13,484 nucleotides of DNA, taken from Rickettsiales bacterium. Its GTDB lineage: Bacteria; Pseudomonadota; Alphaproteobacteria; Methylaequorales; Methylaequoraceae. The notes under the pieces are model-generated. The model searched no databases. It was not told the origin of the DNA and saw only the letters and a list, made by a program, of their open reading frames with translations. Position 1 is the stretch's first letter; every line of letters begins with the position of its first letter. Of the stretch, positions 3,664-11,071 are shown piece by piece. Made by a program: the position numbers and the translations under genes. The stretch covers positions 1 through 13,484 of the forward strand of contig PALK01000017.1 of assembly GCA_002710765.1 (NCBI GenBank), written 5' to 3'.

Positions 3664-4560
3664 TCACTTCTTCAAAGTTATTAGTAATGCTACGAAGGCT
3701 AATCCTCCGAGTCCGTAAAGTAAGAAAGGAGTTTGCGTATCGTCATCAGTATCGTCGTTATTATCACCTTCTCCACCTGTTCCTCCACCGCTGGTAGTAA
3801 TATTGGTTACACCAGTTTCACAATCTTTTGTTTCTTCTTCTGATAAATGAGGGCAGACGCTACCGCCTCCAGAAGCAGGAGTTGTAACAGTTCGGTTGCG
3901 AGTTCGGGTGCCACATTCATCGTCTGACCAAGCCGACCATTCACTCCACGCACTAACTACACAATTTACTGGGTCGCTTCCACTGCTGCCACCATTACCT
4001 GAACCACCCGTATCCGGGGTTTCTTCATAAACATCTATGAGAGAAATATAAACTTCATCATCAATAGATTTATCTGTATTAGTATATAGATCTGTGCCCT
4101 GAACTTTTATGTCAAACCGAGCAATACCTGTCCAATCAGAATCTATGTCTACTTCTAAATAATCTCCGCCTTTGAGGATAACTATGGTAGAATCACTATC
4201 TTTAGATACGACTCCATAAGAACTATCACTAAATTGGTCTTGGAATCTTTCTTGGAATCCATATTCACCACGAGTTTCAAACTTAAACTCTAATTTAACT
4301 TGATAACCATCTCTAACTTTTATTTTCACGGCACCTGATTTGGTGCTTCCACCATCATAATTAGATAAACCTAATTGATTATCATTAACCCACCACCAAC
4401 GTCCATCGTCCATGGCATCGCCTTCTGTTCCACGAATAGTAAACTCAGAAAAAGGTCCTGAACTACAGGTTTCGGTAGTAGCAGATCCAGAATCAGTGCA
4501 CAGGGCTTGAATAGATTTAAGTGTCCAACCAGATACTTGTTGCCAACCTTCTAAAACCAT
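3664..4560 (-). CDS. TSP1-domain protein with C-terminal membrane anchor, 298 aa
   Basis: Probable virion-surface or attachment protein. Residues 1-180 are beta-rich with many aromatic and Asp residues and look like a carbohydrate- or ligand-binding head. A Gly/Ser linker (184-195) leads to a thrombospondin type 1 repeat at about 199-247: the Trp ladder WSEWSAWS (205-212), Cys at 200, 216, 236 and 247, and an Arg-rich strand TRTRNR. A Gly/Asp/Thr-rich stalk (258-277) precedes a membrane helix at about 279-295 ending in LKK. No signal peptide is seen. An in-frame TTG at 4575 overlaps the stop of the collagen-like gene; I chose the ATG at 4560, preceded by GAGAGTGAAGGGA. TSP1 repeats are mostly known as animal and protist adhesion modules, so one here is unusual. 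Confidence 0.85.
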   Translation of the reverse strand: MVLEGWQQVSGWTLKSIQALCTDSGSATTETCSSGPFSEFTIRGTEGDAMDDGRWWWVNDNQLGLSNYDGGSTKSGAVKIKVRDGYQVKLEFKFETRGEYGFQERFQDQFSDSSYGVVSKDSDSTIVILKGGDYLEVDIDSDWTGIARFDIKVQGTDLYTNTDKSIDDEVYISLIDVYEETPDTGGSGNGGSSGSDPVNCVVSAWSEWSAWSDDECGTRTRNRTVTTPASGGGSVCPHLSEEETKDCETGVTNITTSGGGTGGEGDNNDDTDDDTQTPFLLYGLGGLAFVALLITLKK

Positions 4561-4571
4561 TCCCTTCACTC

Positions 4572-5015
4572 TCAATTATCACTGATAAAGTTATGTCTAA
4601 TCTTGAACTCGGCACTACCCAAATCATAAGAAGCATTGGAGGTTGGAAGAACATGGCCATTCAAAGCAATACCATCAATTTCTAAACTATTACCGCTCTT
4701 CCGAGCAACTTGAAGTATTCCACGAAGTTGTGCTAATTCGGCAGAAGTTAAATCTCCTCCAGTTCCGGGTGCACCGTCTTGACCATCCTGTCCAGCATCT
4801 CCTGTTGGACCTTTGTCCCCAATAATACCTTTATCTCCTGTTGGACCCTTGCTTCCTGTATCTCCTTTATCACCGATTGGACCTTTCGGGCCGGGCGGAC
4901 CTTGTGGACCAGCAGGGCCTTGACCTTGTGGGGCTTGTTGAGATACTGGCCTACCCGGTTGTCCTAATAAACCACTCCATGGGGCCTCAAATAGATCAGA
5001 TTGAACGATTCCCAT
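4572..5015 (-). CDS. Collagen-like fibre protein, 147 aa
   Basis: Residues 33-86 form 18 uninterrupted Gly-X-Y triplets, rich in GPx and GDK, which would fold as a trimeric collagen-like rod. Residues 1-30 are a short N-terminal head. Residues 88-108 could be a helical trimerisation segment (LTSAELAQLRGILQVARK). The end (123-147, with LPTSNASYDLGSAEFKIR) matches the motif seen near the C-terminal modules of tailed-phage fibre proteins, but stops where those usually continue with a beta-rich tip or chaperone domain. The likely role is a thin virion fibre or attachment rod. It is the first gene of the four-gene minus-strand operon. A strong Shine-Dalgarno (GGGAGGTGG) lies 10 bases upstream of the ATG. 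Confidence 0.88.
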   Translation of the reverse strand: MGIVQSDLFEAPWSGLLGQPGRPVSQQAPQGQGPAGPQGPPGPKGPIGDKGDTGSKGPTGDKGIIGDKGPTGDAGQDGQDGAPGTGGDLTSAELAQLRGILQVARKSGNSLEIDGIALNGHVLPTSNASYDLGSAEFKIRHNFISDN

Positions 5016-6383: not shown

Positions 6384-8342
6384 ATGAGCCTATTTGCTGC
6401 AGCGTTTGTTGGTGGCATGACCGTATGGTTAATCAACTATATGGAAGATAAAAAGACTGAAAAAGACCTCACACAAATGTATTATGATAAGTATGGGGCA
6501 CAATGGGATGAAAAGATTTATCCTCAAGGTGTCGTTCAGAATGCATTAGGTTATGGTGAATCTCCTACTTTGTATTATAATGAGGCTGAGACTCTGAAAC
6601 CAGTTGGTGAAGGACTCAAAGGCGCACAACGAAATAAAATTGTGATAGATCGCAGTGATGTAGAGTATTATTTTAATTTTAGAATGGGTGACCAAACAGG
6701 AGATTTGAAAACCAGCCAGAACATACCCATGTGTTTTACGGTGTCTTATGATAATCAAGGTTCATTTGATTTCAAGGTGGGTGAAGTAGCAGGAGTAGTA
6801 AATCTCCTTGATGACGCAAACTTCTATTATTCTTCTAACCCAAAACATATGAATTATTCTCCTGATGGTTGGAAGTGGGTAGAAACGTTACGCACACCTG
6901 CTTATGTTTTAGAACATAATAACATGGAGTTTACACCGCACCTTCCTGCCAGTCCTAATACTATGTGGAGAGGCGCAAGAGTGTTCAATGAGCATGAAAC
7001 GATTCCTGAAGGTGGTGCCCGACTTAACGAAAGGCAAACCGAATCTATGGATATATATTTAAGAAACCCAAGTAATAAAGAGGAAGTAAAGTTCTTTACA
7101 GTATATTTTAAAGATCGGGCAGACTATTATTATGATGACCCAGACTTTGATAGATATGATTTCCGAAGCAAGGAACTTATGGTAGAAATAAGGGATATGT
7201 TGGGAGAAAGAATGTTTTTGTCGCCCCTTCCTACATTTAATGCAGAATCAGAAGTTGTTAGTGGCAAAAAGCGTGGAAAAGTTATTTCTATGATTGGAAG
7301 TGATCCACGTCTTCGTAAACTAACTAAAGATAAAGATATTACTCCAGAAGAGGCTGCGAAAAGGTTAGAAATATCTGCGGAACAGTTTGCAGTAGAGTTT
7401 GATGACTGGGCTGAACAAGAAATGAAAACCCACGGATATGATATATCTTTCCGTGAGTGGGCAGATGAAGAATCTGGAAGTCATGGTGATATAGAATTAT
7501 TAGATTGGGCACAACACGAAGAAGAATCGCATGATGCTCGTTATGATGCAGAATCATATAAGCCTCCTGCCAGTGCAGTTAGTAATGCTAAGCGTGGTTT
7601 AAGTTTAAGAAAAGAGTTTGGCCGGGGTGGATTATCACCTTCAGAAGCGAAAGCGCAAGGAATTGATTCTGGTGTTACTCGTGCTCGTAAAATAGCATCT
7701 GGTAAAGTAAGTCGTCATGATGTGCGTCGTATGTCTGCTTTTAATCGTCATCGCAAGAACTATCGTCCTGAAAAGAAAATGCCTGATGGTGGTCCAACCG
7801 CTGGAACGATCGCATGGTTATTGTGGGGCGGAACTTCAGGAGTGAATTGGGCTAAAAATAAATCTGCTTCAATGAATGCAGAATCAGAAATAGTCGTCGT
7901 GCCAGAATGTTTGTTTTGTGAAAATGATGATACTGATGAACCTTTAGTAGAAGTATTGTTAGATGGATATCCAGAACTTATTTGTGAAAGTTGTATGGAT
8001 CCTAATAATTGGGCTGCAGAATCTTTTGGACCTGTAGACGAAGATGGAATCTTGGCCAAAGCCTTGGCTAAGGCTCGTGCTAAAAGTAAAGAACCTCGTC
8101 GTCCATTAAAAATAACTAAATTACCACATCGTAACCAGAAGTCACTTAAAGATTTTGAAGAGTTTAATTCTGCTATTGTGTATCGGAAACCTGAAGGTAT
8201 AGTAGCACAAGTCATGGCTAAAGAAAAAGCCTTACAACAATTAGCACTCTCTGAAGCCTTGTTAGAATTAGAACAATACATTAGATTAGGTATGATTACC
8301 GAGGAAGAGGCATTTCGTAAAATAGTGCAGATGTCACAATAG
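6384..8342 (+). CDS. Modular virion protein, probable processed polyprotein, 652 aa
   Basis: Modules in order: a hydrophobic N-terminal segment (2-18); a beta-rich domain (30-280); a Lys-rich stretch; three repeats with WA/E/H positions (339-351, 356-368, 372-384); a basic helical domain (397-492) with RGLSLR, a GG turn, VTRARKIASGKVS, VRRM, FNRHR and GTIAWLLWGGTSGVNWA; a four-Cys zinc ribbon (CLFC 509-512, CESC 534-537); an Ala/Lys helix; and a helical C-terminus. Four xAE-S sites (E288, E390, E500, E546) sit at module boundaries and look like protease sites. From memory, the 397-492 module recurs in structural proteins of marine tailed phages without a known role. The most likely function is a head or tail structural or head-maturation polyprotein. 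The start is set by TATA 31 bases upstream. Confidence 0.8.
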   Translation: MSLFAAAFVGGMTVWLINYMEDKKTEKDLTQMYYDKYGAQWDEKIYPQGVVQNALGYGESPTLYYNEAETLKPVGEGLKGAQRNKIVIDRSDVEYYFNFRMGDQTGDLKTSQNIPMCFTVSYDNQGSFDFKVGEVAGVVNLLDDANFYYSSNPKHMNYSPDGWKWVETLRTPAYVLEHNNMEFTPHLPASPNTMWRGARVFNEHETIPEGGARLNERQTESMDIYLRNPSNKEEVKFFTVYFKDRADYYYDDPDFDRYDFRSKELMVEIRDMLGERMFLSPLPTFNAESEVVSGKKRGKVISMIGSDPRLRKLTKDKDITPEEAAKRLEISAEQFAVEFDDWAEQEMKTHGYDISFREWADEESGSHGDIELLDWAQHEEESHDARYDAESYKPPASAVSNAKRGLSLRKEFGRGGLSPSEAKAQGIDSGVTRARKIASGKVSRHDVRRMSAFNRHRKNYRPEKKMPDGGPTAGTIAWLLWGGTSGVNWAKNKSASMNAESEIVVVPECLFCENDDTDEPLVEVLLDGYPELICESCMDPNNWAAESFGPVDEDGILAKALAKARAKSKEPRRPLKITKLPHRNQKSLKDFEEFNSAIVYRKPEGIVAQVMAKEKALQQLALSEALLELEQYIRLGMITEEEAFRKIVQMSQ

Positions 8343-9285: not shown

Positions 9286-10170
9286 ATGGAACCAGCATGG
9301 CTTAGAGATCAGGCTATTGTAGGTAACATCGCCGCTATTGCCAAAAACCGAGAAGTAAAGTGGACATGGAATCTTCCTGATGGTAAACAAATTGGAATCC
9401 GTCAGACTCGCATCGCTTGGTCTCGGGACTTTGAACGTTGGATTACTATGTTAGGTATAGACCAGAGACATTTAGACATATTTATATCTACTAACCAATT
9501 GAATTGGAAGGCTCTTCCTGAACTACCTCCTCCCTACCGAGTTAAAGGCCGGGGCGTGAATACGAAAGGAAGAAAATTATATTCCACTCGTTGGAAATAC
9601 TTTTTGACACCTGAAGGATTGAAACCATATGGATTAAAGTTTGAGGAAGTGTGGTTAGGTAAAAACATGGTCTGGGATTTCGATCATGAAGATTTAAGTG
9701 TATCTTTCCAAGATGCTTACCAAGTATATAATTATCTTACCGAGGCTGGAATGCATCCCACAATAGTGTTTTCAGGTAGAAAAGGTTTTCACGTTTGGCT
9801 TACTGGTGATGAATCTGCTCAAATGGCAGGAGTTCATTTACATGATTTAAAAGATAACGAGGACCCTTTGCGAGATATAGGTAAAATATATGCTCGGGTA
9901 GTAGCAGATACTACTTTCGCTGCCACAGGAAATGCACACCCCAGTTTAGATTTAAGTCCTAATTACCGTCAGGGACTGATCCGTCTTCCCTACAGTGTTA
10001 ACCAGCAAGTGGTTTGGCCTCTGTCCGCAGAAGAAATAAATATACTCCACCGCAGTGAGTTCACTACCGACGCAGAAGTTGGAAGTCTACTACATCCTTG
10101 GCAGAAACAAAATCTTTTCTATCGTGCCGGAAATCAGTGTTTCCGTAGAATGTTAGATAACTTTGATTAG
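9286..10170 (+). CDS. priS: Archaeo-eukaryotic primase (PriS-like), 294 aa
   Basis: Catalytic small-subunit-type primase of the AEP superfamily, which makes primers for DNA replication. Motif I is D131-F-D133 (VWDFDHED), the two-metal site. Motif II is S163-G-R-K-G-F-H169, which binds the nucleotide phosphates. Motif III has D222 (LDLS) followed by R233-L-P-Y-S236. All key residues are present, so it is probably active. At 294 aa it is shorter than typical cellular archaeal PriS (about 330-360 aa), and I see no Cys cluster for the zinc knuckle; only one Cys is present (C285). No large subunit (PriL) is in the window. The ATG is preceded by a TATA-like element about 30 bases upstream. Another AEP branch, such as a LigD-type polymerase, is less likely. 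It is followed by a DNA repair gene. Confidence 0.88.
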   Translation: MEPAWLRDQAIVGNIAAIAKNREVKWTWNLPDGKQIGIRQTRIAWSRDFERWITMLGIDQRHLDIFISTNQLNWKALPELPPPYRVKGRGVNTKGRKLYSTRWKYFLTPEGLKPYGLKFEEVWLGKNMVWDFDHEDLSVSFQDAYQVYNYLTEAGMHPTIVFSGRKGFHVWLTGDESAQMAGVHLHDLKDNEDPLRDIGKIYARVVADTTFAATGNAHPSLDLSPNYRQGLIRLPYSVNQQVVWPLSAEEINILHRSEFTTDAEVGSLLHPWQKQNLFYRAGNQCFRRMLDNFD

Positions 10171-10201: not shown

Positions 10202-11071
10202 ATGCCAGAAGGTCCAGAAGTTAAACGCACTACTGAAAGGCTTAATCGCTTTTTACAAGGAAGTAAATTACAAGAAATTGTGGTAGAAGACGACCGCTGG
10301 TTTCAGAATCAAGTAAGAGATGAAGTAAGTTTATTTATGTCAGAGTTAAGTAAAGGTCCTCTGGAAATTAGATCTGTGGATTGTAAAGGGAAGTTTATTT
10401 ATTTCCAAATTGGGAAGTTTGACGTGCATCATACTTTAGGAATGACTGGGACATGGAGATTTCCCGGCAAAGGCGACCACAAACATCGTAGGTTAGTTCT
10501 CAAAACCGATAAAGGTGAGATTACTTATGTGGATTATCGTAAGTTTGGAACATTTAAGATATTTCATGATAAACCTGAGACCCTGCAGAAGAAATTAGGA
10601 ACTTTGGGACCTGATTTATTGAACGAAGAAGTATCAGAAGATTTATTTTTATCACGAATGCGAGGAGAACATACTCGCAAAGGATATAATCACAAGGAAG
10701 TAACACAAGTTATGATGGACCAGAAAGCCGTGGCAGGCATTGGTAATTATATTAAGGCTGAAGCACTGTATATGTCTAAGATTAATCCTCGTGCCAAAGT
10801 GGGAGATTTATCTGATGAGGAATTAAAAGAATTAGGAAGAGCCTGTATCTGGGTTATTCATGCCAGTTACAAAGCCCGAGGTGCCACTATCAGAAATTAT
10901 AAATTACCTAATGGTGATGTCGGTGATTATAAGTTTGAGTTCCAAGTATACTCCCAGAAGACCGATCCGTCTGGAAATAAAGTTATTAGAGAAGAAACTG
11001 CAGATAAACGCACAACTCATTGGGTGTCAGAAATACAAACCCGGGGTGTGACAACACAAAACCATTTATAG
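10202..11071 (+). CDS. fpg: Fpg/Nei-family DNA glycosylase with zincless finger, 289 aa
   Basis: Base-excision repair enzyme that removes oxidised bases and cuts the abasic site by beta/delta elimination. MPEGPE gives the catalytic N-terminal Pro and Glu. K64 (CKGKF) matches the conserved Lys, M81 (LGMTG) the void-filling Met, and R113/F115 (DYRKFG) the intercalating residues. The helix-two-turn-helix includes GIGNYIKAEALY (179-190) with the conserved Asn (N182). The C-terminal hairpin keeps FQVY and the Arg in KRTTHW (R270), but all four zinc-binding Cys are missing (SQKTDPSGNK, VSEIQ). This is a zincless finger of the NEIL1, plant and mimivirus type, so activity is still expected. It likely protects viral DNA from oxidative damage. 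It has its own TATA box and lies between the primase gene and the 11093 operon. Confidence 0.93.
   Translation: MPEGPEVKRTTERLNRFLQGSKLQEIVVEDDRWFQNQVRDEVSLFMSELSKGPLEIRSVDCKGKFIYFQIGKFDVHHTLGMTGTWRFPGKGDHKHRRLVLKTDKGEITYVDYRKFGTFKIFHDKPETLQKKLGTLGPDLLNEEVSEDLFLSRMRGEHTRKGYNHKEVTQVMMDQKAVAGIGNYIKAEALYMSKINPRAKVGDLSDEELKELGRACIWVIHASYKARGATIRNYKLPNGDVGDYKFEFQVYSQKTDPSGNKVIREETADKRTTHWVSEIQTRGVTTQNHL
11065..11070 (+). promoter_or_regulatory. TATA box (TTTATA) of the 11093 operon
   Basis: Lies over the last codons and stop of the glycosylase gene, 28 bases upstream of the ATG at 11093. No Shine-Dalgarno sequence precedes that ATG. Confidence 0.6.

Follow-up and report, generated by a model that had tools for sequence, protein, structure and literature searches.

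The familiar examples of polyproteins come from RNA viruses and from a few large eukaryotic DNA viruses. Among the closest described systems are the head-maturation proteases of tailed phages: gp245 of the giant phage SPN3US cuts after A-X-E with Ser preferred at P1' (PMC10052503), and gp21 of T4 cleaves after L/I-X-E (PMC9026906). Polyvalent proteins are single chains built of 2-15 dissimilar domains; some of these proteins are packaged and some processed (PMC5512222). On the archaeal side, the Magroviruses (Magrovirales) combine an HK97-type virion with PolB (PMC10768690). Here we describe an ORF that is probably one of several modular polyproteins of archaeal virus-like elements, in which Ala-Glu-tagged modules would be cut after the Glu.

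The window, the whole 13,484-nucleotide stretch under analysis, corresponds to the opening 13.5 kb of contig C16 (G000), which is 136,324 bases long. In what follows, V0 stands for C16, and V60, V61, V63 and V64 for four sister contigs (G060, G061, G063 and G064) of 123-166 kb in IMG/VR; the group has a further relative in a 61-kb contig from MAG RS826. Reciprocal best hits to C16 define 28 genes common to all five elements, including those for an archaeal PolD large subunit, TFB and a HerA-type ATPase. The PolD subunit of C16 (L040:15575-19069 (+)) is matched by Pfam at E 4e-108, and its counterparts in the other four elements were assigned by alignment. Since PolD occurs within the window's own MAG (G000) on C16 only, and the window's 652-aa protein was found in one of the 60 genomes searched, that same MAG, contig C16 is probably mis-binned. 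A full-length query with this protein retrieved no relatives among viral contigs; a single-module query did. At its ends (L019, L026-L027), G061 bears inverted terminal repeats of ~3,460 bases with 99.4% identity, no such repeats being seen in the other four contigs, and its 166-kb sequence is probably that of an entire linear genome. We call the five contigs virus-like elements; that they form a virion we infer from their presence in IMG/VR and their gene content, and the word virion in the first-pass name for the polyprotein should be read as equally presumptive. The group apparently represents an undescribed, large archaeal virus-like element: among the titles and abstract openings listed from the open-licence PMC literature, none describes it.

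Several further genes of these elements deserve mention. A highly conserved 210-aa protein present in 5/5 elements (L042:6100-6729 (-)), for which C16, V60 and V61, at least, also encode paralogues, is a candidate capsid protein; it has no significant sequence match in the PDB (a single match, E 0.25) and no match to HCIV-1 VP4 or VP7. The HerA-type ATPase (L043:5169-11404 (-)) has a C-terminal hydrophobic segment, and nearby lie two proteins identified by eye, a VWA-like one and one with HEIGH; the contig encodes, at other places, an ATPase of the AAA class (Pfam) and one that resembles ArsA/GET3 (by eye). Among 50,697 phage records, this HerA-type ATPase has one weak match and the candidate capsid protein none. 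Within the window, a TSP1-like domain protein (below the Pfam cut-off) sits beside a collagen-repeat protein (3664-4575 (-) and 4572-5015 (-)); both are possible surface or attachment proteins, and the collagen-repeat ORF matched tail-fibre families of PHROGs. Downstream of the 652-aa ORF are a primase-like protein with a weak LigD Prim-Pol match (9286-10170 (+)) and an ORF resembling formamidopyrimidine-DNA glycosylase by eye (10202-11071 (+)).

The pentapeptides FNAES, YDAES, MNAES and WAAES occur in the 652-aa protein exactly where the first-pass annotation had placed them (Table 1), with the alanines of AES at A287, A389, A499 and A545. Four AES tripeptides in this protein compare with a mean of 0.33 in 20,000 composition shuffles, four or more arising in a fraction of 0.0003, and none occurs in the other 16 of 17 window ORFs (17 chosen from 34). 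The proposal that these sites are module boundaries is borne out in respect of both modularity and borders, although a fifth boundary site, ISAE/Q, had been overlooked; with it, the modular string would yield about six pieces instead of the about five originally envisaged.

Table 1. Modules and putative cut sites of the window polyprotein (nucleotide positions in the window; a slash marks the predicted cut)
Feature	Position	Strand	Remarks
Polyprotein ORF	6384..8342	+	652 aa
Module 1, N-terminal domain, end FNAE/	6384..7247	+	aa 1-288
Site FNAE/S, cut 288/289	7236..7250	+	FNAES = aa 285-289
Module 2	7248..7382	+	aa 289-333
Site ISAE/Q, cut 333/334	7371..7385	+	aa 330-334; next module AE-bounded in V64 too
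Module 3, WA/E/H repeats	7383..7553	+	aa 334-390, 57 aa
Site YDAE/S, cut 390/391	7542..7556	+	YDAES = aa 387-391
Module 4, basic KRGL...WLLWGG module, phrog_2859	7554..7883	+	aa 391-500
Site MNAE/S, cut 500/501	7872..7886	+	MNAES = aa 497-501
Module 5, zinc-ribbon-like, two CxxC	7884..8021	+	aa 501-546, from sequence
Site WAAE/S, cut 546/547	8010..8024	+	WAAES = aa 543-547
Module 6, fusion of two units found in two separate V60 ORFs	8022..8339	+	aa 547-652

Modules recur in different ORFs and in different orders across the five elements; those of the window protein are spread over four G060 ORFs and also occur in G061 and G064; tblastn found none of them in G063. Module 1 has no relative in the five elements and no membrane segment at a hydropathy cut-off of 1.6. 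Similarity to V60_36188 starts directly after a WDAE in that protein, four residues past the FNAE of the window, and reaches 41% identity between window aa 293-361 and V60_36188 aa 83-144. Module 3 has a counterpart in V64_37952 (aa 342-398) that is of the same length and likewise AE-bounded, with different neighbours, and its terminal YDAE/S belongs to a family of three sites (V0, V63, V64). The clearest example is provided by module 4, which measures 110 aa in V0, V60 and V61, ends in MNAE in 3/3 and is followed by three unlike sequences, while its start directly follows xAE/ in two elements and lies close to the initiator Met in the remaining one. Module 5 has no relative by phmmer; a comparable CxxC end, MAAE/, was seen in V61_72424, a protein that also contains neighbouring repeats of 73 and 75 aa, each running from AE/ to AE/. 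In the sole close relative of module 6, V60_94913, AE is missing at the position of WAAE/S (NWGG-DPEG), and site 546 is the weakest-supported of the protein's sites. The joint near aa ~592 inside module 6 (DFE-EF) is without AE; the matching module of V60 ends in DFEAE/T.

The association between Ala-Glu and module ends was quantified in two ways. Among the ORFs of the five elements, with those cut at 20-kb piece borders kept as they fell, AE lay within two residues of 81 of 346 distinct partial-alignment ends, the expectation from random positions in the same proteins being 17.6 (200 draws, maximum 30). Its z of 15.1 was the highest of all dipeptides with an expectation above 1, followed by ET at 6.1, and in the control, the ends of whole-gene alignments, AE was counted at 37 of 774 against 25 (maximum 38). 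SE, GE, AD and EA stayed within the random range at module ends (SE, 13 against 8.1, maximum 16); EE exceeded it (21 against 10.0, maximum 17). AE directly before module starts was modestly enriched (35/339 against 17.3). The pairwise break test compared 20-residue windows around 394 AE positions in 53 proteins, chosen for at least three [FMYLWI]xAE motifs, a choice that enriches AE positions and not breaks at AE. Upstream similarity was present in 60 AE pairs; 51 of these were dissimilar downstream, three intermediate and six similar, whereas 1612 pairs at 302 other dipeptides gave 305, 181 and 1126, respectively. Restricted to inter-element pairs, downstream similarity was lost in 42/49 cases at AE versus 228/1353 elsewhere. 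The AE pairs form 26 families, which are not 26 independent exchanges, as some are within-protein repeats and a few probably mark no boundary (for instance, the DWAE in V64 repeats). By fraction of sites, the runners-up include YG, SA, NA and MN, which are pieces of the same tags. Only 21 pairs were similar downstream of AE alone, and thus it is mostly the upstream module that the tag accompanies. In orthologue triples, AE was not conserved above average (0.107 versus 0.129), and all 12 Pfam domain matches tested in module ORFs, four of them overlapping or weak, are free of internal AE. In one core protein, [TV]F[AS]AE is kept in 5/5 elements, one of which has an insertion of ~45 aa just after it. 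On the level of sequence, these comparisons establish module exchange with boundaries exactly at Ala-Glu.

The 94 boundary sites, from 36 proteins, define a profile of Met/Tyr at P4, Ser/Gly at P3, Ala at P2 and Glu at P1, followed by Ser/Thr/Gly/Asp at P1' and Glu/Phe at P2'. The first-pass motif, AES, persists in its Ala-Glu core and is better written as hydrophobic-x-Ala-Glu/, since P1' accepts several residues besides Ser. Likewise, the expectation that homologues would keep AES while the flanks vary holds for Ala-Glu at module ends and not for Ser: the site at the end of one and the same module reads MNAE/S, MNAE/T and MNAE/E in three elements. Relative to a control with the central dipeptide swapped to xEA, the motif [FMYLWI]xAE[STGD] is 2- to 5-fold more frequent in each element (28 versus 14, 51 versus 16, 52 versus 14, 53 versus 11 and 39 versus 18). 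Five distant HerA-bearing 20-kb loci, which share only the HerA-like ATPase or little more and two of which look nearly identical, contain 1-2 motifs versus 1-4 for the control, without excess. The tripeptide AES or AE[ST] alone was ruled out as a diagnostic, AE[ST] being conserved inside the PolD subunit in 5/5 elements.

The modules carry recognizable domains. The 1325-aa module ORF of C16 (37544-41521) contains a PolX palm and thumb, a LigD 3'-phosphoesterase and DUF5872; the module ORF V61_151891 combines a Cu/Zn superoxide dismutase with DUF5872; and a WGR-like domain occurs in a V63 module ORF and, weakly, in C16. Several unlike domains per chain are thus found, as in polyvalent proteins. 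The superoxide dismutase polyprotein (V61_151891_154662; L026) also has a HELGH near its end (aa 877), possibly an embedded metallopeptidase; Pfam recorded no peptidase in the module ORFs scanned. Module 4 matches phrog_2859 at E 6e-6. In four of five tailed-phage proteins scanned it is joined to an S78 or S78_2 prohead protease, and the three phage regions viewed place it within or close to a gene with a major capsid annotation, which ties it to virus heads elsewhere. At L005-L007, L009 and L011, the WLLWGG module is N-terminal and precedes an HK97-type prohead protease (by Pfam for L005, by eye for the rest); at L008 and L010 the sequence is truncated.

JAMM/MPN+ enzymes share an active-site set of Glu, HxH, Ser and Asp. 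A protein encoded at C16 41532-42368 and conserved in 5/5 elements has the invariant residues E34/E36, H86, H88, S103/S104 (SSTD) and D106, with an H-to-D spacing that exceeds that of the JAB relatives seen by seven residues. Profile comparison (hhalign) gave E values of 0.1, with the motif in register, and 0.29, both weak; Prok-JAB PF14464 was detected in none of the five orthologues, DUF4329 in one of five below the cut-off (E 0.0068), and no significant match was found in the PDB (best E 0.14). All five orthologues possess a C-terminal hydrophobic segment, 2-7 residues ahead of which stands xAE in two and xSE, whose SE lacks a clear enrichment at module ends, in three, and xAE follows the segment in four of the five. 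In C16 the gene adjoins the 1325-aa module ORF; in V60 and V61 it does not. This conserved, tail-anchored, JAMM-like protein may tentatively be put forward as the best protease candidate, these features pointing to it weakly. The protease motif scan covered three elements and the HExxH scan all five; HEIGH proteins were seen in C16, V60 and V61 and a HEMAH homologue in V63, with no HExxH counterpart seen in V64.

The same observations can be read without cleavage. The window ORF could encode an uncut multidomain protein of the polyvalent type, with the Ala-Glu tags serving as linker or capping motifs where fusion is tolerated. An uncut packaged multidomain protein does exist, the N4 virion RNAP (PMC5512222), the protease of the present elements is a candidate only, and the tag is missing at the joint within module 6. 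We nevertheless regard this account as unlikely: residue preferences flank a fixed bond on both sides, the tag travels with the upstream module, and the core protein keeps the motif ahead of a variable stretch, all of which are more readily expected of a protease site than of a linker. A hot spot in the DNA itself, at which modules are exchanged at a specific sequence that reads AES by chance, is barely credible. The 15-base match in the window (7239-7253 and 7875-7889) and the 11 bases shared with a third site (7240-7250, 7546-7556 and 7876-7886) are confirmed and had suggested that sites were copied with their modules. That explanation fails, however, on codon diversity: Ala and Ser codons at the 94 sites are about as varied as elsewhere, with GCT at 44%, GCA at 31%, GCC at 20% and GCG at 5% for Ala and four kinds among 17 Ser codons, and P1' is often a residue other than Ser. 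Glu is GAA in 89% of sites and in 76% elsewhere. As the site codons vary, the constraint acts on the protein, and the idea of AES as a DNA recombination site is largely refuted.

A further alternative agrees with the preferred reading on cutting and differs from it in the type of virus and of protease: caudovirus-like head maturation, in which an undetected protease of the S77/S78 kind cuts virion precursors after AE. Such an origin would accord with the Glu-P1 specificity of T4, phiKZ and SPN3US, with the fusions of module 4 to S78 or S78_2 in tailed phages, and with one ORF that matches a terminase-named PHROG (phrog_2666, E 3.6e-17). Pfam, however, names that same ORF a HerA DUF87, and V61 has 3.46-kb inverted terminal repeats. 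The search for a prohead protease proposed in the first-pass annotation also came back empty, no known family of these enzymes being found: S78 and S78_2 were detected in 0/5 elements (E <= 10) while the positive controls, both tailed-type records, rang (S78_2 in G062, S78 in G066), and S77 (T4 gp21-type) was seen in none of three records (G060 and G061 of the group, and G062). Nor did PHROGs reveal a capsid, including the HK97 capsid, or a portal among the 30 of 158 C16 ORFs scanned. On balance, a caudovirus identity is quite improbable.

We return to the favored explanation, a family of cleavable modular polyproteins. Short, exchangeable modules, most ending in hydrophobic-x-Ala-Glu, would be strung together, among them basic units and zinc ribbons, with the family's other ORFs contributing repair enzymes and superoxide dismutase. 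The cut, most commonly ahead of Ser, Thr, Gly or Asp, would be made after the Glu by a maturation protease that the element itself probably encodes, and would release the pieces of the window protein. Cleavage of the bonds, packaging of the pieces and the identity of the protease are here what we infer from genomes. A bolder and rather doubtful extension is that archaeal dsDNA viruses possess a general cassette system, in which a large library of small, interchangeable proteins, each with a terminal Ala-Glu release tag, is assembled into several packaged polyproteins per genome that are cut by a viral protease of the JAMM type. If true, new cargo such as repair enzymes, superoxide dismutase or zinc ribbons could be added by simple fusion, JAMM enzymes would acquire a new role, and archaeal viruses would be credited with a polyprotein strategy that the covered part of the open-licence PMC literature does not report for them. 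Archaeal elements that shuffle tagged modules would offer a natural catalogue of virion cargo with cut sites readable from genomes, and would predict precisely where new N-termini arise, what a single protease recognizes, and where dozens of small, unknown domains begin and end.

Comparison with known systems places the window protein among several partial analogies. The asfarvirus core polyproteins pp220 and pp62 are likewise polyproteins of a large DNA virus cut into virion parts, cutting being presumed for the elements described here. Their motif and protease presumably differ from those of the present elements. As regards the Magrovirales, the five elements carry a PolD large subunit, and an HK97 capsid was not seen in the 30 of 158 C16 ORFs scanned. 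The Borg elements of Methanoperedens are also archaeal; they have JAMM-fold proteins, to which the JAMM-like candidate may correspond, and, in some, superoxide dismutase; in their description, which does not use the word polyprotein, they are linear with inverted terminal repeats, here present in G061 only, of megabase size and all endowed with PolB (PMC12660748). For polyvalent proteins, release is ascribed to embedded peptidase domains, whereas in the present elements many exchangeable modules, spread over several ORFs, terminate in a recurring tag; a single tag ending many exchangeable modules across ORFs was not encountered in the part of the open-licence PMC literature covered. A further parallel is the prohead maturation of giant phages (SPN3US gp245, phiKZ) together with T4 gp21, which also relies on a short motif with Glu at P1. 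SPN3US resembles the present case in favoring Ser at P1' and, presumably, in processing internal head proteins, and departs from it in having Ala at P3 instead of P2. S78-type proteases were not detected in the five elements. Finally, the cuts identified in SPN3US, apart from self-cleavage, yield N-terminal propeptides, whereas in the archaeal elements cleavage would act on whole strings of modules.
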